Below are positions 36,155-52,153 of a stretch of 64,000 bases of DNA, in pieces. The first letter of the stretch is position 1; every line of letters begins with the position of its first letter. Both the position numbers and the translations under genes were made by a program. Source of the stretch: a bacterium (GTDB taxonomy: Bacteria > Actinomycetota > Acidimicrobiia > Spongiisociales > ZC4RG35); assembly GCA_028823995.1 (NCBI GenBank), contig JAPPFD010000024.1, forward strand, positions 21,533-85,532. Reading direction: 5' to 3'. The notes under the pieces are model-generated. The model ran no database searches and was not told the DNA's origin. It saw only the letters and a list, made by a program, of their open reading frames with translations.

Positions 36155-36230
36155 CCCTTCCAGACCAGGCGGAAGCCAGTTGCAGCGAGTGCAGGGAACC
36201 GGCGAATGGAAACGGAGGAGACATCCGGAG

Positions 36231-37439
36231 ATGCTTGAGGAGTCGGGGTCCGGGATGGTTCGGCTGCGTAACGGCCAGGTGGTGTTCGACCGGTTCGTGG
36301 AAGCCGGGACCAATCCCATCTCCCGCGCCGAGATCGCCCGCCGGACCGGACTCTCGAAGCCCACCGTGAACACGCTGGTTCAGGATCTCGAAGCCGCCGG
36401 TGTGGTGAGGTGCAACCCCTCTGCTCAGCCGTCCCAGGGTCGGATCGGCCGGCCGGCTGCTTCCTATGAATTGGTGCCAGACGCCGCGCTTGTGGTGGGG
36501 GTCGATATGGGCGCTACCAAGACCATCATCGGCGTAGCGGACCTGTTGGGAGATGTGATAGCCGCCGAGCAAATCGAGACTCCGGCCGACGCGGTGGCGG
36601 CGGTGAACGCAGTGGTGACCGCAACGCGGCGCCTGCTGGAAGGCCTCGGCGAGCGGGGGTCGAGGCTGGAAGCAGCCTGCATGGGAGTGCCCGGCGTCTA
36701 TCGACCCACCCACGACCGGGTGGAGATGGCCCCCAACCTCCCCGGGTTCGTTGACTTGCCGATCAGGGCGGAACTGTCGGACCGGCTCGGCGTCGAGGTG
36801 ACCATAGAGAACGACGTGAACCTCGCCACGGTCGGGGAGGCGAACGAGATGGCGGGTAAGGGAACCAAGCATTTCGCCGCCATCTCCATCGGCACCGGAA
36901 TCGGTATGGGGATGGTGATGGAAGGCGCCCTGTACCGGGGCGCCCACGGAGCGGCGGGGGAGATCGGATCGGTCAAGCTGCCGCGGGTGGGCGGGGAGGT
37001 GTTCCACGCTCTCACCCTGGAGGACGTGGCATCGGCGCCTGCCATCAGAAAGCTGTTTCACCGTTCGGTGGAGGCGGGATGGCGCACCGGCCTGGAAGGA
37101 GACGCCGATGTCCCGGCCATATTCGCCGCCGCTTCGCGAGGCGACCAGGCGGCCACCACTGCTCTCGACATCGCCGCTGACGCAGTTGCCTTCGCCACCT
37201 CCTACTTCTGCTGGGTGAATGATCCAACCTTGGTGGTGTTCGGCGGCGGGGTGGGTTCGAACCCCATTTTCGTGGATGCGGTCCGGGCCCGGATCGGCCG
37301 CTATCTGACCGTCATACCCGAGATGGCGCCCTCCACCTTGGGGGGCCGGGCGGCGTTTCTGGGCGCGATCTCCACCGCTCTCGCCGAGGTTCGCGGTTCA
37401 CTGGTGGCGAAGCGACTGGCGCGGAGGAATGAGGGATGA
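36231..37439 (+). CDS. ROK-family transcriptional regulator / sugar kinase-like protein
   Basis: N-term wHTH (ISRAEIARRTGLSKPTVNTLVQDLEAAGVV) then GVDMGATKTIIGVADLLG...ISIGTGIGMGMVMEGALYRGAHGAAGEIG. Confidence 0.92.
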   Translation: MLEESGSGMVRLRNGQVVFDRFVEAGTNPISRAEIARRTGLSKPTVNTLVQDLEAAGVVRCNPSAQPSQGRIGRPAASYELVPDAALVVGVDMGATKTIIGVADLLGDVIAAEQIETPADAVAAVNAVVTATRRLLEGLGERGSRLEAACMGVPGVYRPTHDRVEMAPNLPGFVDLPIRAELSDRLGVEVTIENDVNLATVGEANEMAGKGTKHFAAISIGTGIGMGMVMEGALYRGAHGAAGEIGSVKLPRVGGEVFHALTLEDVASAPAIRKLFHRSVEAGWRTGLEGDADVPAIFAAASRGDQAATTALDIAADAVAFATSYFCWVNDPTLVVFGGGVGSNPIFVDAVRARIGRYLTVIPEMAPSTLGGRAAFLGAISTALAEVRGSLVAKRLARRNEG

Positions 37440-38707
37440 CCGAACACGCCGCCTCCGTGGCAGCCTCCGTCGATGAGGGCGCCCTGGTCAACCTGGCCCG
37501 GGAGGCGGTGAGGATTCCAAGCGTCACTCCCGATGAAGCGGCGTTCGCAGAGTGGGTGAGGGACCGGCTTGAGGAAGGTGGATGGAACGAAGTCAGTCTG
37601 CTCGAGGTAGAACCGGGTCGGCCCAATGTCCATGCCCACGCCGGGGACCCCGATGGTGGAGGCCGGTCTTTGGTGCTGGCGGGGCACCTCGACACGGTCC
37701 ATGCAGATGACTGGACCCAGGAGTGGGCGGGCACCGATCGCGCCGATCCGTTCAGGGCGCACTTGCTCGACGGGGAGATCTGGGCGCGGGGTGTGACTGA
37801 CCAGAAGGGAGGGATCTGTTCCATCATCGAAGCCGTCCGCGCCGTCCGTCGGGCGGGGCACCGGCTGGCGGGATCGCTGACCGGATTGTTCGTCTGCGAC
37901 GAGGAGTCCGGTCAACCGGGGAGCGGGCTCTCTGTGGGAATGCGGGCCGCAATGAGGGATTCGGCGAGAGGTGGCGGGAAAGCGCCTGACTTTGCGATTT
38001 ACACCGAGCCCACCACCGGCGCCATCTATACGGCACAGATGGGATTCCTGATCGCCGACATCACCCTGGCGGGAAGGTCGGCCTACTTCGGCACACCGGA
38101 ACTCGGGGTGGACGCGCTGGCGGCCGGACACGCTCTGTTGAGCGCCTTGTGGAGCTACAACGACACGCTGGGCGCGGGCGAGGCTCATCCCCTGCTGGGT
38201 AAGCGGTTTCTCCTTGTCACCAGGGTGGAGTCGGGGGGCAACATCGCGGTCCCCGGGAAATTCCAGTTGTCCCTCATCCAGAAGCTGCTGCCCGGTGACG
38301 ACCTGGACGGAGCGGCCGTGGCGCTTAGAGACGTCACAGAGAGGGTCTCCGAGCAATACGGGGTCACTGGAGATGTGGCCTTCTCCGCGCCGAGGGACCA
38401 TCCTGTCGGAGGCACGCCGGATGAGGTCCCGGCCGATCACCCCGCGGTCACCCAGTTGGCGGCCGCCATCCAGCGGACCACCGGGCACTCGGCCCGGATC
38501 GAGGGGGCTCCTTACTGGTCGGAGAAGCCGCTTCTCCGGGCAGCCGGCATTCCGGGTGTCTACTTTGCGGCAGGTGACATCGCCACCTGTCACACGCCTT
38601 TCGAGCGATTGCCGATCGATCAATTCGTCTCAGTAACCCGGACCCTGGCGTACTTCATTGCGGCGTGGTGCGGGATCGAGGAAGCAACAGAAAAGGAGGA
38701 ACCATGA
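37436..38707 (+). CDS. M20-family peptidase/deacylase (ArgE/DapE-like)
   Basis: LVLAGHLDTVHADDW; ARGVTDQKGGICSIIEA; CDEESGQPGS; ATGA overlaps with ROK gene and binding-protein gene. Confidence 0.88.
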   Translation: MTEHAASVAASVDEGALVNLAREAVRIPSVTPDEAAFAEWVRDRLEEGGWNEVSLLEVEPGRPNVHAHAGDPDGGGRSLVLAGHLDTVHADDWTQEWAGTDRADPFRAHLLDGEIWARGVTDQKGGICSIIEAVRAVRRAGHRLAGSLTGLFVCDEESGQPGSGLSVGMRAAMRDSARGGGKAPDFAIYTEPTTGAIYTAQMGFLIADITLAGRSAYFGTPELGVDALAAGHALLSALWSYNDTLGAGEAHPLLGKRFLLVTRVESGGNIAVPGKFQLSLIQKLLPGDDLDGAAVALRDVTERVSEQYGVTGDVAFSAPRDHPVGGTPDEVPADHPAVTQLAAAIQRTTGHSARIEGAPYWSEKPLLRAAGIPGVYFAAGDIATCHTPFERLPIDQFVSVTRTLAYFIAAWCGIEEATEKEEP

Positions 38708-39897
38708 GAAAAAGAACCATGAACCTCAGACGCAATACGTCCGCCCTGTGGCTCGTCACCGGTCTGGTGGCAGTGCTCAGCCTGGTTGCGGCGGCTTGCG
38801 GCGACGCCGAGGAGGAAACCACCACTACCCAGGCATCAGCCGCAGCCACCACTACCCAGGCGCCTGCTACGACACAAGCTCCAACTGAACCCGTGGCGCC
38901 GGTTACTCAGGGGCCGGGTGGTGAGGAGGCTACTCCGTCGGGTGAGATTGGTTTGAGTGGTGATGAGATTGCGGAGGTGCAGTCTGGGGGGTACACGGCG
39001 GCTTTGTTGTGGCATACGGCGGGTGCGTTCACTGATGCGGTGAGCCAGGGCGCTCGGGATGCTTTCGCGGAGTTGGGTGTTGAGGTGATCGCTGAGACCA
39101 ATGCGCAGTTCGATGCTGCTCAGCAGGCCAATGATGTGGAGACTGTGTTGGCGCAGGATCCTGACATCATTGTCAGTTTGGTGATCGATCCGGTGTCGGG
39201 CGCGGAGGCGTTCCGTCCTGCGGTTGATGCCGGTGTGCAGTTGGTGTTCTTGAGCAATGTGCCCGAGGGTTATGTGCATGGTGTTGACTATGTGGGGGTG
39301 GTGACCGATGATCTGGCTGCGATGGGTATGGCGGCTGCTGATCTGTTGGCTGATGCGTTGGGTGGCTCGGGGAAGGTGGGTTTCATCTTCCATGACGCTG
39401 CCTATTACGTGACGAACCAGCGTGATCAGGCGTTCAAGACTTGGATAGCGGAGCGTTATCCGGGTATTGAGATTGTCTCTGAGCAGGGGTTGGCTGATCC
39501 GGCTGCTGCTGAGGAGATCGCTTCGGCGTTGTTGACCCGGAATCCTGATCTGGATGGGATCTATGCGCCGTGGTCGGCTGGTCCGGCTGACGGGGTGTTG
39601 GCTGCTTTGCGGGCGGCGGGCGCTTCGGATGTAGCGGTGGTGACCCTGGATCTGGACACGAATGTCTCGCTGGACCTGGTGGAAGGCGGGAACATCGTGG
39701 GTATCGCGGCGGATGAGGCCTATGAGCTTGGACGGACCATGGCGCTGGAAGGCGCTTACGGGCTGTTGGGCAAGGACGCCCCTCCGTTCACAGTGGTGCC
39801 GGCCATCAAGGTCACCGCGGACAACATCGTGGACGCCTACCGGCGATCACTCGCCACCGACCCACCAGCAGAAGTCATGCAAGCACTGGGCGGATAA
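38704..39897 (+). CDS. CUT2-type sugar ABC transporter substrate-binding lipoprotein
   Basis: Lipobox LVAAACG; TTTTQASAAATTTQAPATTQAPTE linker; Peripla_BP_4-like GGYTAALLWHTAGAFTDAVSQGARDAFAELGVEV. Confidence 0.9.
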   Translation: MRKRTMNLRRNTSALWLVTGLVAVLSLVAAACGDAEEETTTTQASAAATTTQAPATTQAPTEPVAPVTQGPGGEEATPSGEIGLSGDEIAEVQSGGYTAALLWHTAGAFTDAVSQGARDAFAELGVEVIAETNAQFDAAQQANDVETVLAQDPDIIVSLVIDPVSGAEAFRPAVDAGVQLVFLSNVPEGYVHGVDYVGVVTDDLAAMGMAAADLLADALGGSGKVGFIFHDAAYYVTNQRDQAFKTWIAERYPGIEIVSEQGLADPAAAEEIASALLTRNPDLDGIYAPWSAGPADGVLAALRAAGASDVAVVTLDLDTNVSLDLVEGGNIVGIAADEAYELGRTMALEGAYGLLGKDAPPFTVVPAIKVTADNIVDAYRRSLATDPPAEVMQALGG

Positions 39898-39939
39898 CCT
39901 CCCTGAATAGCTGATCGAACAAGGAAATAATCCCCAGAG

Positions 39940-40947
39940 ATGAGAGTCCATGTCCGCGCCGGCGCCCGGTTGAGGCGGGCATGGGCTCGCCGGAGCGAAG
40001 ACGGCGGGTATCGACAGTACGTGGTCTATTTGGCCTTCGTCTCGATTCTTGCGGTCTTCGCTCTGATGCTGTGGGATGACGGCTTCCTGAGCTGGTCGAA
40101 CCTTCTCAACATCGGGCGTCAGGCCGCTCCGATCGCAGTGATGGCCGTGGGCATGGCGTTCGCGCTGGCGTCGGCCGAGATAGATCTCTCGATCGGATCT
40201 ACCGTGGCGCTCTCGTCGCTGGTAGCAGCGGCGGTGGTCGGCGATCACGGGTTCTTTCTCGGAGCCATGGCCGCGGTGGGGGTGGGGGCGGCGATCGGGC
40301 TGGTGAACGGCCTGATCACGGTCAAGGTGCGGATTCCCTCCTTCCTGGTGACCCTGGGGACGCTGGGAATCATCAGCGGCATCGCCCGCAACATGAACAA
40401 CCTGCAGTCCATGCCGATCAGGAACGACGCCTTCTCCGCGCTGTTCGGCGCCGGGTCGCTGGGTCCCATCTCATCGCTGGTCATCTGGACGGCGATCGCC
40501 TTTGCCATCGGGCACTTCGCGCTGCATCACCTGCGTTGGGGGAGGCATGTTCTCGCCACGGGGGCAAACCGGGCGTCGGCCAAGGCGGCCGGTCTCAATA
40601 CCGACCGGATCAGGATAAGCGCCCTGATGGTCAGCTCGGTGGCGGCGTCCTTCGCCGGGGTGTTGCTGGCCGGCCGGTTGGCCATCGGCCGTCACGATCT
40701 GGGGGAGAATGACCTGCTCACCGTCATCGCCGCGGTGGTGATCGGCGGGACGAATCTGTTCGGCGGCCGCGCCTCCATCGCCGGCGCGGTGACGGGGGCC
40801 CTGATCATGGCGATGCTCAACAATGGATTGATACTCATGGGCCTCGAGGTGGCGGACCAGTTGATCGCCCGGGGTCTCATCATCATCGTGGCGGTGGCGC
40901 TCAGCATGCGGACGCCGTCGGAAAGTGTGGGTGACGATGTTCCTTAG
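39940..40947 (+). CDS. CUT2-type ABC transporter permease (RbsC-like)
   Basis: GMAFALASAEIDLSIGSTVALSSLVAA; AAVVIGGTNLFGGRASIAGAVTGALIMAMLNNGLIL. Confidence 0.92.
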   Translation: MRVHVRAGARLRRAWARRSEDGGYRQYVVYLAFVSILAVFALMLWDDGFLSWSNLLNIGRQAAPIAVMAVGMAFALASAEIDLSIGSTVALSSLVAAAVVGDHGFFLGAMAAVGVGAAIGLVNGLITVKVRIPSFLVTLGTLGIISGIARNMNNLQSMPIRNDAFSALFGAGSLGPISSLVIWTAIAFAIGHFALHHLRWGRHVLATGANRASAKAAGLNTDRIRISALMVSSVAASFAGVLLAGRLAIGRHDLGENDLLTVIAAVVIGGTNLFGGRASIAGAVTGALIMAMLNNGLILMGLEVADQLIARGLIIIVAVALSMRTPSESVGDDVP

Positions 40948-42142
40948 TTCCCTGATCGCCAGGAACCAGGCCTTTCTGGAGGCGTCGGTCCAACTCCATC
41001 AGGACAACCTGATTCCTGCCAACAGCTACGTGCTGGACCTCGACGCCCTGGGGGCGAATACCCGCCACATGGCGGCCGAGGCGCACCGTCGGGGCTTGAA
41101 GGTGTACGCGATGAGCAAACAGGTTGGACGAGCCCCGGGGGCGCTGCGGGCGATCACCGACGGGGGCGCGGACGGCTATGTGGCGGTGGATATGGCATGT
41201 GCGAGGCCCATCGTCGCCTACGGCCACCGGCTGGGCAATCTGGGGCACCTTGTTCAGGTGCCGAGAGCCGAGGCGGGCGAGGCGGCGCGCCTTGAGCCGG
41301 AGTATTGGACGATATTTTCGCGGAACAAAGCGCGTGAGGCCTCCCGGGCCGTGTCTGGAGGCGACCGCACGCAGCAGGTCCTTCTGAGGGTGTGGGATCG
41401 ACGAGATGTGTTCTATCCGGGACACGAGGGGGGTTTCCATCTCGACGACTTGTCGGATGCGATCGAGTTCGTCAACCGCCTCGACGGGCTGGAGTTCGCC
41501 GGGCTCACCACCTTTCCCGCCCTGCTGTATAACCCGGAGGGGAGAAATGTGAAGCCCACTCCCAATGTGGAGACTCTGGCTCGCGGCGTGGAGATCGCCC
41601 TCGGACATTTGGGGACCGGCTTTCCGATAGAGGTGAATGCCCCCGGCACCACTTCCACCGCGGTGCTAGAGCTCCTGGCGGAGATCGGCGCCACCCAGGT
41701 GGAGCCGGGGCACGGCCTGACCGGCACCACGCCCCTGCATGCGGTGGCGGAGCTTCCCGAAAAGCCCGCCGTCCTCTACCTGACCGAAGTCGCCCACCTG
41801 CACCAGGACGTGCCGCTCTGCTTCGGCGGGGGCCTCTATGTGGACCCCGTATTCGATCCGTATCAAACCAGGGTGTTGGCGGCCAGGAGTCCCGAGGACG
41901 TCGGCTTGGAACCGGTCCCCATCGACATGCCGGATCCGGCCGGCATCGATTACTATGCCCGGCTCCATCCGCCGGAGGGTCGAAGGCTGCGAGAAGGCGA
42001 CACCGTGATCGCCGGCTTTCGTATCCAGGCCTTCGTGACGAGGGCGTCGGTGGTGGGAGTGAAGGGAGTCGGCGCCGGGAACCCGGTGGTGGCGGGTGTG
42101 TGGAACGTCGAGGGCGCACCGGCCGACTGGGGTGGCCGATGA
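40937..42142 (+). CDS. Alanine racemase-like PLP enzyme (YhfX-like)
   Basis: SYVLDLDALGANTRHMAAEAHRRGLKVYAMSKQVGR (PLP Lys context); VEPGHGLTGTTPLHA; start 40937 inferred. Confidence 0.78.
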   Translation: MFLSSLIARNQAFLEASVQLHQDNLIPANSYVLDLDALGANTRHMAAEAHRRGLKVYAMSKQVGRAPGALRAITDGGADGYVAVDMACARPIVAYGHRLGNLGHLVQVPRAEAGEAARLEPEYWTIFSRNKAREASRAVSGGDRTQQVLLRVWDRRDVFYPGHEGGFHLDDLSDAIEFVNRLDGLEFAGLTTFPALLYNPEGRNVKPTPNVETLARGVEIALGHLGTGFPIEVNAPGTTSTAVLELLAEIGATQVEPGHGLTGTTPLHAVAELPEKPAVLYLTEVAHLHQDVPLCFGGGLYVDPVFDPYQTRVLAARSPEDVGLEPVPIDMPDPAGIDYYARLHPPEGRRLREGDTVIAGFRIQAFVTRASVVGVKGVGAGNPVVAGVWNVEGAPADWGGR

Positions 42143-42906
42143 CTGCGCCGGCGCTCTCGGTGCGGAAGATGTCCAAGGCGTTTCGCGCGGTGCAGGCCCT
42201 CGAGGACGTCTCGCTGGATGTCCATCGCGGCCGGGTGACGGCGCTTCTCGGTGACAATGGCGCCGGAAAGTCCACGCTGGTCAAATGCATAGCCGGGGTG
42301 TACCAGCCCGACTCTGGCACGGTGAGCATAGACGGCGTCACGCATCGCATCTCCTCTCCGGACGTAGCTCGGACCCTGGGCGTGGAGACCGTTCACCAGA
42401 ACCTCTCGCTGATCGACAGTCTCAATGTGGTGGAGAACCTCTTTCTCAACCGCGAATACACCCGGGGCGGGTCTTTCGGGTCCCGCATAGGCCTCCTGCA
42501 CAAGAAGAGGATGTCCCGTGAGTGCCAGGCCACCCTGGCCCGTCTCGGGATCTCCATTCCCTCACTGCGAAAGCCGGTGGGCCTCCTCTCGGGGGGCCAG
42601 CGCCAGGCCATCGCCATCGGGAGAGCGGTGGCGTGGGGCCAGAAGATCGTTCTCCTGGACGAGCCGGCCGCCGCCCTGGGAGTCGAGCAAGCACAAAGGG
42701 TGCTCGATCTGATCGTGGCGCTCCGGGAGGCGGATGTCGCAGTGCTGCTCATCACCCACAACATGGACCGTGTCACCCAGGTCTGCGACGACGCGGTGGT
42801 CTTGCGCCGGGGCCGCAAAGCAGCCGAGGTGAGAGTCGACCAGGTCACCAAGGACGATCTCGTGGCGTTCATTACGGGAGCCAAGACCACCGACGGCGGG
42901 ACTTGA
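42139..42906 (+). CDS. CUT2-type ABC transporter ATP-binding protein (single NBD)
   Basis: LLGDNGAGKSTLVKCIAGVYQPDSG; LLSGGQRQAIAIGRAVAWGQKIVLLDEPAAALGVEQ. Confidence 0.93.
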   Translation: MTAPALSVRKMSKAFRAVQALEDVSLDVHRGRVTALLGDNGAGKSTLVKCIAGVYQPDSGTVSIDGVTHRISSPDVARTLGVETVHQNLSLIDSLNVVENLFLNREYTRGGSFGSRIGLLHKKRMSRECQATLARLGISIPSLRKPVGLLSGGQRQAIAIGRAVAWGQKIVLLDEPAAALGVEQAQRVLDLIVALREADVAVLLITHNMDRVTQVCDDAVVLRRGRKAAEVRVDQVTKDDLVAFITGAKTTDGGT

Positions 42907-42948
42907 CCCGTTTCCAGCGGCGCGCGCGGGCGCCTGCCCCCTAAAGCG

Positions 42949-43698
42949 ATGCGAGTGAACTCAGTGGAGGTGATCGTGGAGGGAGATCCGGCCGGTTTGG
43001 CGCGCAGGACCGCCGACGTGGTCCAGGAATACCTCGGTTACACCCGAGATCCGGTGCTGGGGCTGGCCACCGGGGCGTCCGTGCGCCCTCTTTACCGGGA
43101 ACTGATCCGTCGCCACCGCCGGGAGCAGCTGAGCTTCAGCGGGGTGCGGTCCTTCCTGCTCGACGATTACATCGGTCTCGGTCCGGAGCATCCCCAGTGC
43201 TATGGCAACCTCATCGAAACCGAGTTCTCGGGGCATGTGGACATCGAACCTGAAAACCTGTACGCCCCGGATTGTCGGGCTGCCGACCCTGAGCTGGAGT
43301 GCGATCGCTACGACCGGCTGGTGACCCGGGCGGGAGTGGGACTGCAGATTCTCGGGGTGGGGCGCAACGGCCATCTGGCGTTCAACGAGCCAGGGTCCTC
43401 CTTCGAGTCCCGTACCCGGGTGGTACGACTGGCGGCGGCCACCAGGGCCGACAACGCCCGGTACTTCGACGGCCCCGACCAGGTACCGGCCCTTGCTATG
43501 ACCCAGGGCATAGCCACGATCAGCCAGGCCGCCCATCTCTTGGTATTGGCGACGGGACCTTCCAAGGCCGAGGCTGTTCGGGCGGCGCTGGAAGGGCCGA
43601 TCACCTCGGCGGTTCCGGCCTCGGCGATCCGGCGGCACTCCAGGGTAACGGTTCTCCTGGATCCGTCGGCCGCCCGGCTCACCGGCCTGGGCCGGTAG
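42949..43698 (+). CDS. nagB: Glucosamine-6-phosphate deaminase/isomerase-like protein
   Basis: VLGLATGASVRPLYRELIRRH; FLLDDYIGLGPEHPQCY; ILGVGRNGHLAFNEPGSSFESRTRVV. Confidence 0.93.
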   Translation: MRVNSVEVIVEGDPAGLARRTADVVQEYLGYTRDPVLGLATGASVRPLYRELIRRHRREQLSFSGVRSFLLDDYIGLGPEHPQCYGNLIETEFSGHVDIEPENLYAPDCRAADPELECDRYDRLVTRAGVGLQILGVGRNGHLAFNEPGSSFESRTRVVRLAAATRADNARYFDGPDQVPALAMTQGIATISQAAHLLVLATGPSKAEAVRAALEGPITSAVPASAIRRHSRVTVLLDPSAARLTGLGR

Positions 43699-46845: not shown

Positions 46846-47796
46846 CTAGCGGTAACCCCCGCCCCTCCGCAGGCTGTCCAGGGTCACGGCGATGATCAGT
46901 ATCGCGCCGCGCACCACCGACTGCCAGTAGATCTGCACCTGGAGGAGAATCAGTCCGTTCTGGACGACCCCGATTATCAACAGTCCCAAAAGGGTCCCCA
47001 AGAGGCCTCCCCGGCCTCCGCTCAGGGCGATGCCACCCAGCAACACCGCGGCGATGATGTCCAGTTCGGCGCCGTTAAGGGCACTTGGCAGGGCTGTCCC
47101 GCTCTGGGAGGTGAGCATGAGGCCCGCCAACCCCGCTAGGCAGGCCTGGGCCACGTAAGTCCAGCCTCGCAACCGGTCGACCCTGATGCCGACGTTGCGA
47201 CATGCCTCGCTGTTGCCGCCTATGGCGTAAAGGTGGTTGCCGGCCACCGTGAACCGCATGAAGCACATTCCCAACACCACCACCGCCAGGAACAGCCAAA
47301 CGGTTATCGGAGCCCCAAGCCAGGACCCCCTACCCAGTTCGCTCCAAGCGTTGACGCCGATCACGATGTTGTCGCCCCCGGTGGACACGAACGCCAGGCC
47401 CCGGTAGAAGAGCAGAGTTCCCAGTGTGGCGATGATCGGGTTGATCCGGAACTTGACAATCAGCAAGGCGTTGAAGGACCCCAGGACGCCGGCGGCGGCT
47501 ATGCCCAGCACGCCGACCAGGACGCTGTTGACCTCCAGGGTGATCAGGCTCGCCGTGACCATGCCGGCCACAGCAGCCACGGCGGCCATGGAAAGATCCA
47601 GACCTCCGGCGATCATCACCACCGTCAAACCGATGGCGATGAGGCCTCGGATGGAAATGGCCTGCCCGATGTTGATGAAGTTGCGGGTTGTGAAGAAGAA
47701 CTCGGACTGCCAACTGAAAAGGGCAATGAGCATCAGCAGTGTGATGAACAGTCCGATCAGTGTCCAGTTGTCCTGCCTCTTTAGAGCCGAGATCAT
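46846..47796 (-). CDS. CUT2-type ABC transporter permease (RbsC-like)
   Basis: GLIAIGLTVVMIAGGLDLSMAAVAAVAGMV; AAVLLGGIALSGGRGGLLGTLLGLLIIGVVQNGLIL. Confidence 0.92.
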   Translation of the reverse strand: MISALKRQDNWTLIGLFITLLMLIALFSWQSEFFFTTRNFINIGQAISIRGLIAIGLTVVMIAGGLDLSMAAVAAVAGMVTASLITLEVNSVLVGVLGIAAAGVLGSFNALLIVKFRINPIIATLGTLLFYRGLAFVSTGGDNIVIGVNAWSELGRGSWLGAPITVWLFLAVVVLGMCFMRFTVAGNHLYAIGGNSEACRNVGIRVDRLRGWTYVAQACLAGLAGLMLTSQSGTALPSALNGAELDIIAAVLLGGIALSGGRGGLLGTLLGLLIIGVVQNGLILLQVQIYWQSVVRGAILIIAVTLDSLRRGGGYR

Positions 47797-48587
47797 TGGT
47801 CGGAACCATTGTTCATCTCGACCGCTCCGTTCCGGACATGAGGTGGGGCAACTCCGGTTATCCACCCGATGATCTGGTTGGTGGTCGTCTCTGACGAGGG
47901 GGCGTAGGCCCAGAGCTTGCCTTGGCGGAGCACCGCGATGCGATCGGTTATGTCCAAGATGTCGCTCAAGTCGTGGGTGATCACCACGACCGCTTTGTCC
48001 TGCCGGCGCATGCTGGTGATCAGGTGGTGAACTTGCTGGGTCTGTTCCACTCCCAGGGCGGCCGTGGGTTCGTCCAGAAGAAGGATGTTGCCTCCCATGG
48101 CGATTGCCCTTGACAGAGCAACGGCTTGCCTCTGTCCACCCGACAGCAACTCGACATCGGTCTTCTGAGACGCCAACCGGATGTTCAGTTCCTCAAGCAT
48201 CACGTTGGCGTCGCGTTCCATCTTGCGGCGGTCCATGAAGTACCCGAAGCGGCGAGGTTCCCGTCCCAAATAGATGTTGTGAGCCACAGATCTGGTTTCC
48301 ACCAGCGCCAGGTCCTGATAGACGGTGGCGATTCCCAGAGCTTGGGCGTCGGCTGGGCGGTTGATGGTTACCGGCCGCCCCTGGTATTCGAAAGAACCCT
48401 CGTCGGCGTGATAGTTTCCCGACAGGATCTTGATCAGCGTGGACTTTCCGGCTCCGTTGTCACCCAGCAGACCCACGACTTCTCCTGCATGCAGGTCCAG
48501 ACTCACATCCACCAGAGCTTTCACTTGACCGAACGCCTTGGAGACATTCGACAAACGCATCAGCGGCGGTTTGCTCGGTTTACCCAT
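47793..48587 (-). CDS. CUT2-type ABC transporter ATP-binding protein (single NBD)
   Basis: VVGLLGDNGAGKSTLIKILSGNYHADEG; LLSGGQRQAVALSRAIAMGGNILLLDEPTAALGVEQTQQ; start at MGKPSKPP. Confidence 0.93.
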   Translation of the reverse strand: MGKPSKPPLMRLSNVSKAFGQVKALVDVSLDLHAGEVVGLLGDNGAGKSTLIKILSGNYHADEGSFEYQGRPVTINRPADAQALGIATVYQDLALVETRSVAHNIYLGREPRRFGYFMDRRKMERDANVMLEELNIRLASQKTDVELLSGGQRQAVALSRAIAMGGNILLLDEPTAALGVEQTQQVHHLITSMRRQDKAVVVITHDLSDILDITDRIAVLRQGKLWAYAPSSETTTNQIIGWITGVAPPHVRNGAVEMNNGSDQ

Positions 48588-48613
48588 ATCTCGTTGTCCA
48601 TGCGGTTGTGGAT

Positions 48614-48651
48614 GTGCCCGGTGGTCGCCATGGCGGCGGGCCACCGGGCAC
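48614..48651. other. Intercistronic hairpin between binding-protein and ATPase genes (- strand transcript)
   Basis: Perfect 11-bp stem GTGCCCGGTGG / CCACCGGGCAC; loop contains palindrome CGCCATGGCG. Confidence 0.8.
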
Positions 48652-48672
48652 AATCCTATTTCGTTTTCGCTT

Positions 48673-50700
48673 CTACCCCGGGTAGAGGTCGAAGACGTTG
48701 TCTCTGGTCACCGGCGAGACGGAGGGGATGAGCCGTTCGGGAACGGTCTTGCCCTCGATCAGGTCCACGATGGCGGGCACCAGGTAGGTGCCGTAGCGCT
48801 CGGGGAAGTAGCTGATGGTGGCCTTGAACACCGACTCGTTGTCGGAGCGCTGCCGCAGGTCCACCAGTGCCTCGTCGGAGGCGCCCAGGCTGGCGGCGGC
48901 CGCGTGACCGAGGTAGCCACTCTGCTCCAAGGCCAGGGCGCAGTCCACGCCGGGCTGGTCGCTGTGTCCGAAGCAGAGCACGTGCTGCGCGCCGGGGTTG
49001 GCGGTCGCCCAGGTGGTCACGTTGGGGAGCGTGTCGGTCAGACCCTCGGTGGGGATGTCGTGGATGTTCTCGTCCGGGATGGCGAAGCTCTCCCTGACGC
49101 CGTCTCTGGCGCCGTCGGCCCGGGCCTTGTGGACGGGAACGTCCGGCGTCCACACCAACAGCAAATGGGTGTCCTCGGCTGCCCAACCCTGCTCCTGGGC
49201 GAAGGCGGCCAGGTACCGCCCCGCTTCCAGAGCGGCGTTGTAGTTGTCGGGGCCGAATGCCACGCATCCGGGGTGGGGTCCGTCGTAGGAGACGCAGGGG
49301 ATGCCGGCGTCGTGGAAGATCCCGGCGATGAGTTCTTCGGTGCCGGCGATCCAGTTGGCGAAGATCACTCCGTCGACCTGTTGGGTGACCAGCAGGTTGG
49401 AGCACTCCACGGTCCGCTCCTGGTCGTAGGCGTTGTCGCAGTAGACGATCTCCACGCCCATCTCGGCGGCGACCGCGTTGATGTTGTCGGTGACGCTGTC
49501 GGTGAACGGAATACCCGACAGGCCGTCGCCGTAACCGATCCTGAACGCTCCGGAAGCTTCCCGAATCACGGCTTCGTATTCGTCCTCGTCGGCCATGGCT
49601 GCCTCGTCCAACTCGCCTCCCGGGTACAACTGCTCGACGTTGTCCCTGGTCACCGGCGAGACTGAGGGGATGAGCCGTTCTGGAACGGTCTTGCCCTCGA
49701 TCAGGTCCACGATGGCGGGCACCAGGTACTGGCCGTAGCGCTCGGGGAAGTAGCTGATGGTGGCCTTGAACGCCGACTCATCGTCAGAGCGGCCCCTCAG
49801 GTCCACCAGTGCCTCGTCGGAGGCGCCCAGGCTGGCGGCCGCCGCGTTGCCCAGGAAGCCGCTTTGCTCGAGGGCCAACGCGCAGTCCACGCCCGGTTGG
49901 TCGCTGTGTCCGAAGCAGAGCACGTGCTTGGCGTCGGGATTGCCGGTCGCCCAGGTAGTCACGTTGGGCAAGGTGTCGGTCAGACCCTCGGTGGGGATGT
50001 CATGGATGTTCTCATCCGGAATGTCGAACGACTGTCGCACGCCGTCGGTGGCGCCGTCAGCGCGGGCCTTGTGGACCGGAACGTCCGGGGTCCAGACCAG
50101 CAGGAGTTCGGTTTCCGCGGGGTCCCATCCCTGGTCGATGGCGTACTGGGCCAGGAATTGGCCGGCGGCAACACCAGCCTCGTAGTTGTCGGGGCCGAAC
50201 GCCACGCATCCGGGGTGGGGTCCGTCGTAGGAGACGCAGGGGATTCCGGCGTCGTGGAAGATCCCGGCGATGAGTTCTTCGGTGCCGGCGATCCAGTTGG
50301 CGAAGATCACTCCGTCGACCTGTTGGGTGACCAGCAGGTTGGAGCACTCCACGGTCCGCTCCTGGTCGTAGGCGTTGTCGCAGTAGACGATCTCCACGCC
50401 CATCTCGGCGGCTATGGCGTTGATGTTGTCTGTGACGCTGTCGGTGAACGGGATACCGGACAGGCCGTCACCGTAACCGATCTTCCAGGGCTGCTCGGCC
50501 GGGCGGATCATGGCCTCGTAAGGACCGCTGGGTTCCTCGGGTTCTTCTTCCGGGGCTTCTTCCGGCGCCTCTTCCACGGGGGCGGCTGTCGTTGCGGGGG
50601 CAGCGGTGGTGGCGGGAGCCGCCTCCTCGTCTTCCCCGCAGGCAGCCACCAACAGAGCGATGACCGCAATTCCAACTATCAGCTTGCGTGACATTCTCAA
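48673..50700 (-). CDS. CUT2-type substrate-binding lipoprotein with two tandem near-identical binding domains
   Basis: Lipobox LLVAACG; two copies of IGYGDGLSGIPFTDSVTDNINA[I/V]AAEMGVEIVYCDNAYDQERTVECSNLLVTQQVDGVIFANWIAGTEELIAGIFHDAGIPCVSYDGPHPGCVAFGPDNY, 314 aa apart. Confidence 0.93.
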   Translation of the reverse strand: MRMSRKLIVGIAVIALLVAACGEDEEAAPATTAAPATTAAPVEEAPEEAPEEEPEEPSGPYEAMIRPAEQPWKIGYGDGLSGIPFTDSVTDNINAIAAEMGVEIVYCDNAYDQERTVECSNLLVTQQVDGVIFANWIAGTEELIAGIFHDAGIPCVSYDGPHPGCVAFGPDNYEAGVAAGQFLAQYAIDQGWDPAETELLLVWTPDVPVHKARADGATDGVRQSFDIPDENIHDIPTEGLTDTLPNVTTWATGNPDAKHVLCFGHSDQPGVDCALALEQSGFLGNAAAASLGASDEALVDLRGRSDDESAFKATISYFPERYGQYLVPAIVDLIEGKTVPERLIPSVSPVTRDNVEQLYPGGELDEAAMADEDEYEAVIREASGAFRIGYGDGLSGIPFTDSVTDNINAVAAEMGVEIVYCDNAYDQERTVECSNLLVTQQVDGVIFANWIAGTEELIAGIFHDAGIPCVSYDGPHPGCVAFGPDNYNAALEAGRYLAAFAQEQGWAAEDTHLLLVWTPDVPVHKARADGARDGVRESFAIPDENIHDIPTEGLTDTLPNVTTWATANPGAQHVLCFGHSDQPGVDCALALEQSGYLGHAAAASLGASDEALVDLRQRSDNESVFKATISYFPERYGTYLVPAIVDLIEGKTVPERLIPSVSPVTRDNVFDLYPG
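48676..49581 (-). repeat. Copy B of intragenic tandem duplication (942-bp period)
   Basis: Aligns with 49618..50523 at a constant +942 offset; 49304..49470 reads identical to 50246..50412. Confidence 0.92.
49618..50523 (-). repeat. Copy A of intragenic tandem duplication (942-bp period)
   Basis: See copy B; separated by an acidic linker GGELDEAAMADEDEYEA. Confidence 0.92.
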
Positions 50701-50839
50701 CCTTTCTCTTTATTCAGATGGTGACGAAATCGCTATTCGCCAAACCGGTATGACATGGACCACCGTATGGCGGTATACAAGCGGTTCCCGGTCAAAAAAG
50801 TATCCTAACCCGGCCTGACCCCGCCTTATTCGGGAGGAG

Positions 50840-52153
50840 CTAGCATTGATGCGCTCCAATTGGCCGTGAGACGCCTTCGGCATAGGCGACGAGGCTGGCG
50901 TTGACGGGGTCTCCAGCATGGAACTCCCCGGGTTCCAGGGCGGCGACATCGACAGGTTGTCCTGCCCTGAAGACCTCTCGCACCCGGCCGATGTGATCGA
51001 TCTCCGAGAGGGGGTTTCCCTCCGTCAGGAGGAGGTCTGCCGCCTTCCCTTCTTCGAGAGTCCCGGTCAGACGGTCGACGCCCAGCCTGCGGCTTGCCTC
51101 CCGGGTGGCAGCGGTGAGGACCTGCGCCGGCGTGAGCCCCGAAGTCGTCAACATCGCCAGTTCATCGTGGAGGCTGAATCCGGGGATCAGGTAAGGCCAG
51201 GGCGCGTCGGTTCCGGCGACGATGGGGACGCCGGCCCGATAGAACGCCGGGATCGCCCTTTGGATCTCTGCCACGGCCGCCATCCGGCCTCGGGATCCTT
51301 CCGGATCATGGCGGTGAGGAAAGGCCTCCCAGCTCTGCCTGATCTCCTCGGGAACCCACCGAAGCCGCGGATCGGGCCGGGAGACAAACTGGCTGAGGCG
51401 GGCCAGGCGGTCCCAAACGACCACGGTGGGGCACAGCGCCGTGTCGGCTTCGATCAGCGCATCGGTCACTTCTTGGAGATCCACCAGATGGGAGCCGTCG
51501 AAGGGATGGATGATCCCGCTCAGGTGCTGAAGTTCGGCCACCCCCGCCCGGGCGGCTTCCAGCGCGTTCACTTCTCCCAGGTGGGCCACCACCGGCACCC
51601 CGGCTCGCCTCCCCGCCGCCACTGCCGCCTCGACCTGTTCCAGGTCCAGGTGAACGTAGAGCTTGATCTCGTCAACCCCGGCCTCGGCAAGTCTCTCCAC
51701 CTTCGCAGCCACGGCCGCCGGGTCCTCGTGGCGCTCTCCGATCAGCGGCCAGTTGACATGGCGGCCGTCCAGCACCGGGCCGCAGCAGCGAATCCGGGGA
51801 GCGGGCCGGGGATCGGCGGCAAGCCGACTTCGCAGACCCAGTATCCAGTCAAGGTCGTTGCCGATGTCCCGCACCGTGGTCACCCCGGTGGCCAGGAGAG
51901 CAGGAGCCATCCACGAGGCCATGTGAACGTGGGCGTCGATCAGACCCGGCATGAGGGTGCATCCCGGAAAGGCCACCCGGTCCATGTCACCCGGCAGGGT
52001 CCTGGCGTCCGCCACTCCTTCGATCTTGCTCCCCGAGATCACCAGGGCCTTTCCGGATTGAGGCTCGGGGTCCGGCGGGTTCCAAACCAGGTCCGGTAAC
52101 ACCGCCAATCGCGGTGGACGTGGGTGTTGGGAAGGAGAAGATCGGTTTTGCAC
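50840..52153 (-). CDS. Amidohydrolase family protein (imidazolonepropionase/prolidase-like)
   Basis: CTLMPGLIDAHVHMASWMAPALLATGVTTVRDIG; VVAHLGEVNALEAARAGVAELQHLSG; IVAGTDAPWPYLIPGFSLHDEL. Confidence 0.92.
   Translation of the reverse strand: MQNRSSPSQHPRPPRLAVLPDLVWNPPDPEPQSGKALVISGSKIEGVADARTLPGDMDRVAFPGCTLMPGLIDAHVHMASWMAPALLATGVTTVRDIGNDLDWILGLRSRLAADPRPAPRIRCCGPVLDGRHVNWPLIGERHEDPAAVAAKVERLAEAGVDEIKLYVHLDLEQVEAAVAAGRRAGVPVVAHLGEVNALEAARAGVAELQHLSGIIHPFDGSHLVDLQEVTDALIEADTALCPTVVVWDRLARLSQFVSRPDPRLRWVPEEIRQSWEAFPHRHDPEGSRGRMAAVAEIQRAIPAFYRAGVPIVAGTDAPWPYLIPGFSLHDELAMLTTSGLTPAQVLTAATREASRRLGVDRLTGTLEEGKAADLLLTEGNPLSEIDHIGRVREVFRAGQPVDVAALEPGEFHAGDPVNASLVAYAEGVSRPIGAHQC

Follow-up and report, generated by a model that had tools for sequence, protein, structure and literature searches.

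A gene for a sugar-binding lipoprotein in the window (the whole stretch of 64,000 nucleotides that was analysed) contains two tandem, in-frame copies of its ligand-binding domain. The arrangement is conserved in related genomes, its copies share conversion tracts, and tandem architecture of this kind was found in at least ten binding-protein families of the class Acidimicrobiia (24 genes). In our opinion, the probable explanation is receptor dosage, in which the binding domain was duplicated in frame and gene conversion holds the copies uniform.

The predicted protein begins with a putative signal peptide MSRKLIVGIAVIALLVAAC, in which a lipobox Cys was recognized by eye, followed by a Pro/Ala/Thr/Glu tether, domain A, an acidic linker of 25 residues, and domain B. 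ATG at 50694 is the likely start rather than TTG at 50700, because a ribosome-binding site AGAGAAAGG precedes it. The whole protein matched Peripla_BP_4 (PF13407) with 133.7 bits and the two domains with 70.6 and 68.1 bits; the receptor thus exceeds the Pfam cut-off of 35.1. The RbsB-type domains lie 314 aa apart in a repeat unit of 942 bp, and over 301 codons the copies share 86.5% DNA and 87.7% protein identity. The sequence bore out the reading frame, the strand, and the 942-bp in-frame spacing of the original prediction. The 167-nt identity between the copies that it had described proved exact, and beyond one mismatch, 44 more nucleotides are identical. Coordinates of the features are given in Table 1.

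Table 1. Features of the tandem receptor gene and its neighborhood (window coordinates)
Feature	Position	Strand	Basis or remark
Tandem sugar-binding lipoprotein gene	48673..50694	-	673 aa, ATG start
Ribosome-binding site AGAGAAAGG	50701..50709	-	Read from sequence
Lipoprotein signal peptide, lipobox LVAAC (Cys19)	50638..50694	-	From sequence
Disordered Pro/Ala/Thr/Glu tether, residues 20-67	50494..50637	-	Sequence; pLDDT <50 in model
Binding domain A (Peripla_BP_4)	49618..50484	-	Profile match and model
Acidic interdomain linker, about 25 residues, GELDEAAMADEDEYEAVIREASGAF	49543..49617	-	Sequence; residues 361-382 pLDDT <50
Binding domain B (Peripla_BP_4)	48676..49542	-	Profile match
Identical (gene-conversion) tract, copy A	50246..50412	-	Copy alignment, dS
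Identical (gene-conversion) tract, copy B	49304..49470	-	Copy alignment, dS
Strong intergenic RNA hairpin 3' of receptor gene	48610..48656 (approximate)	-	-41 kcal/mol, z -3.5
Single-NBD ABC ATPase	47793..48587	-	Profile match; ATG 48587 chosen by eye
CUT2-type permease (BPD_transp_2)	46846..47865	-	Profile match; true start probably inside ORF
Amidohydrolase directly upstream of receptor	50840..52153	-	Same strand; operon membership uncertain

The receptor gene stands at the head of a CUT2-type operon, in which a permease and a single-NBD ATPase are each encoded once. The permease matched BPD_transp_2 with 132.9 bits, and its nearest NCBIfam models were those of arabinose and ribose permeases, with scores under the equivalog cut-offs. 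The ATPase, a 286-aa ORF with one ABC_tran domain, aligned to the first half only of the RbsA/YtfR models; two fused NBDs of the RbsA form were not present in it according to the profile search. Domain matches of the receptor, permease, and ATPase agree with the original description of a free lipoprotein serving a CUT2 transporter. FrcBCA is the type of single-NBD CUT2 transporters, and its receptor FrcB has a single domain. At the level of architecture, at which the two are compared, the operon has one permease gene and one single-NBD ATPase gene as in the FrcBCA type but differs in its tandem receptor. RbsB and the arabinose-binding proteins of CUT2 importers share the fold and the pocket core with the tandem receptor, whereas their known members are single-domain. 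The stem of the hairpin predicted between the receptor and ATPase genes is conserved across five species, and genome G003 shows paired changes in it. Since sequence inspection revealed no T-run 3' of it, the hairpin is probably an element of mRNA stability or processing; analogous elements of other binding-protein operons are the basis of this reading.

AlphaFold2 modeling of domain A (pLDDT 93) yielded a type I periplasmic-binding fold, for which Foldseek retrieved arabinose- and ribose-binding proteins as the best matches (4kzk and 7e7m at the top, TM-score 0.81–0.87). In the full-length model, built from a shallow alignment, the two domains were separate and both tether and linker were disordered; its relative domain placement is not reliable (pTM 0.46). 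Phe, Asp, and Arg residues equivalent to F15, D89, and R141 of RbsB were invariant across 37 relatives. Differences between A and B were concentrated at domain residues 102–126 and at the C-terminal edge, and none was found at the seven positions equivalent to the ribose pocket. This match is consistent with a shared ligand, although seven positions are too few to exclude different ligands.

The window genome (G000) is a 2.94-Mb assembly of 40 contigs; its contigs C1 and C4 have the same match set with identical scores, which suggests a redundant assembly stretch. The full tandem was detected in G003, in G004, which belongs to the same genus, and in G005, while in G001 it is broken by contig ends. 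Orthologs of the receptor in G002 and G068 are single-copy. In the phylogenetic tree, A copies were separated from B copies across species, except for the loosely placed A copy of G003 and the A copy of G004, which grouped with B; the two lineages maintain a 12–16% protein difference across species. The one domain of G002 was placed among the B copies (support 0.98), a placement made unreliable by recombination. A scan of genome contigs with the tandem alignment recovered one locus, the patterns having landed on the signal peptide and tether.

A metagenome assembler could have written a single-copy gene twice or joined two genes. The genomes are mostly fragmented bins, exact tandem repeats are poorly counted in short-read assemblies, and contigs of several relatives break at the repeat. 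However, the copies in the window differ by 12% and have a unique linker, G003, G004, and G005 share the arrangement, and tandem genes are present on the single contigs of G138 (4.78 Mb) and G256 (4.97 Mb) as well as on a 3.0-Mb contig of G068. As an account of the existence of the tandem, an artefact is already refuted, and we consider it extremely improbable; the sister-genome tandems and the single-contig genomes support the initial view that this is not an assembly duplicate. Copy number and exact identity in the binned genomes are uncertain, since short-read assemblers can merge similar repeats, but the genomes assembled into one contig indicate that tandems with exact or almost exact repeats do exist.

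Alignment of the halves with dS calculated along the gene, as suggested with the original prediction, located a conversion tract. In its 129-nt core, dS was zero in all tested pairs of G000, G003, G004, and G005, both between copies and between species, whereas outside the tract the domain had dS of 0.04–0.87. The run of identical silent codons exceeded the permutation expectation in G000 (p about 0.006) and G004 (p = 5e-5, approximately). Against G002, dS was 0.36 in the tract and 0.50–0.56 in the remaining domain, which ruled out strong nucleotide constraint as the reason why the tract is identical. The two copies of G004 match perfectly over 621 nt, where copy A bears B-type residues, which supports overwriting of A by B-type sequence through conversion, with loss of the A/B differences over this stretch. 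Judging by these patterns, the tract spread recently between the copies and probably between species as well. Between the copies, dN was 0.082 and dS 0.32; therefore, both are under purifying constraint. The original prediction had proposed an older duplication with either local conversion or strong constraint: silent divergence and the overwritten copy of G004 favor conversion, and the dS against G002 speaks against constraint.

The ten tandem families of Acidimicrobiia share 15–34% identity with each other, and perfect runs above 800 nt occur in 15 of the 24 genes, one of which is located on the single-contig 5.0-Mb genome G256. The tandem gene of G138 has copies 99.0% identical with a 615-nt perfect run. 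The window genome harbors two more: an unrelated tandem Peripla_BP_4 receptor on contig 22 (L009), whose copies agree perfectly over 296 nt, and a tandem receptor of the branched-chain type (Peripla_BP_6) on contig 36 (L153). Fam3 and Fam4 tandems were found in G051, G058, G068, G073, G074, and G075, Fam6 tandems in G311 and G352, and three further families in G138, G047, and G256. The Fam5 receptor is tandem in G004, G038, G075, and G077 and broken at the repeat in G003. Its window copy (38704..39897) is single; given the tandems of the four genomes, the assembly may have collapsed it here. In trees of Fam3, Fam4, and Fam5, the two copies of each genome were sisters, although differences between genomes ranged from a few per cent up to 18%. 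The Fam5 junction ALGE is common to five genomes, and the linker beyond it copies the N-terminal tether of each genome's own protein. A junction held in common, together with copies specific to each genome, suggests that the duplication is old and that homogenisation is still ongoing; in some families, independent duplication is possible.

Several other loci were noted. The Fam5 receptor of the window is surrounded by an amino-sugar-type cluster (36180..43698, + strand) consisting of a ROK-like regulator, a peptidase-like protein, the Peripla_BP_4 receptor, a CUT2 permease, a racemase-like protein, a single-NBD ATPase, and a member of the glucosamine-6-phosphate isomerase family. Three adjacent Peripla_BP_6 matches in G058 (L155, G058:C45:86752-90507) lie in separate frames and form a gene-level array, vs. 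the fused tandems of this family in G000 and G068. The Fam4 tandem of G068 adjoins a protein of 600 aa (L069:10504-12303, - strand) in which a Cache-type sensor domain is repeated about four times, a further instance of in-frame multiplication of a ligand-binding domain. A 665-aa permease-like ORF (L163:17816-19810, + strand) has an internal repeat of about 59% over 100 residues at an offset of 320 aa, and L176:741-3599 and L177:18316-20000 contain repeated RECTEQGLTNYG..TGQKWIG..Y.NLYNC motifs with poly-Thr between them.

The original prediction had regarded a free double-domain lipoprotein as uncommon and proposed a search for others. Among roughly 157 listed Peripla_BP_4 matches in 178 genomes of the class, 11 proteins were tandem, a count that takes in second copies of G000 and G005 from separate per-genome results. 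Control samples of other Actinomycetota gave no open frame with two matches among the matches listed. Thus, the architecture is uncommon in the sampled controls but recurrent within Acidimicrobiia. In plasmid records, also used for comparison outside the class, the relatives were single-domain among the places listed; RbsB-like proteins of rhizobial plasmids shared about 62% identity with the tandem protein of G256, both halves of which matched one single-domain place. Two long frames outside the class, in G641 (906 aa, one Pfam domain) and G612 (711 aa), were rejected as tandems, having no comparable internal repeat. In the literature on tandem or duplicated solute-binding lipoproteins, we found only the work on GlnPQ.

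The tandem could also be a neutral by-product, with occasional in-frame duplications whose extra domains are tolerated, ordinary recombination homogenising the copies, and uptake unchanged. Low-complexity Pro/Ala/Thr tethers flank the duplicated unit, close relatives include both single and double forms, and conversion between direct repeats requires no selection. Against such an origin, ten families are doubled in one class and none in the phylum control samples, other genes of the window genome contain no second near-identical domain-size duplication over 464 kb, and the frame and both domains are kept under purifying constraint. The bias toward receptors answers this alternative only partly, and it is real, albeit rather unlikely.

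According to the dosage explanation, the entire binding domain would have been duplicated in tandem and in frame, so that one anchor and one signal peptide serve two receptors, and recombination between A and B would repeatedly convert one copy into the other. Converted copies would still share their ligand and the permease on which they dock, giving more receptor locally per anchor and per transporter, with selection for dosage acting through a higher uptake capacity. The conserved hairpin between the receptor and ATPase genes would fit in with receptors usually outnumbering transporters, and the tandems of sister genomes have species-consistent A and B copies. Several observations count against dosage. 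The copies in the window have drifted by 12% in protein sequence, and their functions could be separating. SBP_bac_1 receptors of the same genomes are undoubled (no tandem in 29 matches, three genomes), which a general dosage argument would not predict. Direct repeats are also expected to lose a copy through recombination, and single-copy orthologs exist in G002 and G068.

Separation of functions would make the protein a two-ligand receptor in the manner of GlnPQ, with specificities or affinities of A and B that differ or are diverging. The tandem SBDs of GlnPQ from Lactococcus lactis multiply the binding sites near the translocator, bind independently of one another, and differ in ligand (PMC8025302). 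In both systems, a single polypeptide displays two binding domains, connected by a short linker, on the outer side of the cell membrane. However, those of GlnPQ form part of the permease chain and bind amino acids with differing specificities, whereas here a free lipoprotein with its permease encoded separately has near-identical domains of a sugar-type fold, in an architecture of ten families. Persistence of the A and B lineages across species at their present protein difference would favor two ligands; ongoing homogenisation, identical pocket-equivalent positions, and the sequence-identical domains of most families oppose it, and we find this role improbable. Of the two roles originally proposed, receptor density is thus favored over two ligands on sequence grounds, given the homogenisation of the copies and their agreement at the ribose-pocket equivalents.

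Acidimicrobiia may even adjust the stoichiometry of their receptors through the number of domain copies: domains of the periplasmic-binding fold would be duplicated in frame in many unrelated importers, continuing concerted evolution would hold the copies identical, and copy number would grow and shrink among strains. We put this forward as a possibility short of probable. Such repeats may be miscounted in short-read assemblies, and they provide clean cases of concerted evolution within single bacterial genes. Previously known tandem binding domains belong to a few amino-acid importers, as permease fusions whose specificities diverge. By doubling free receptors of the sugar and branched-chain types again and again and holding their copies identical, the class offers a natural experiment on whether the number of binding proteins limits uptake.
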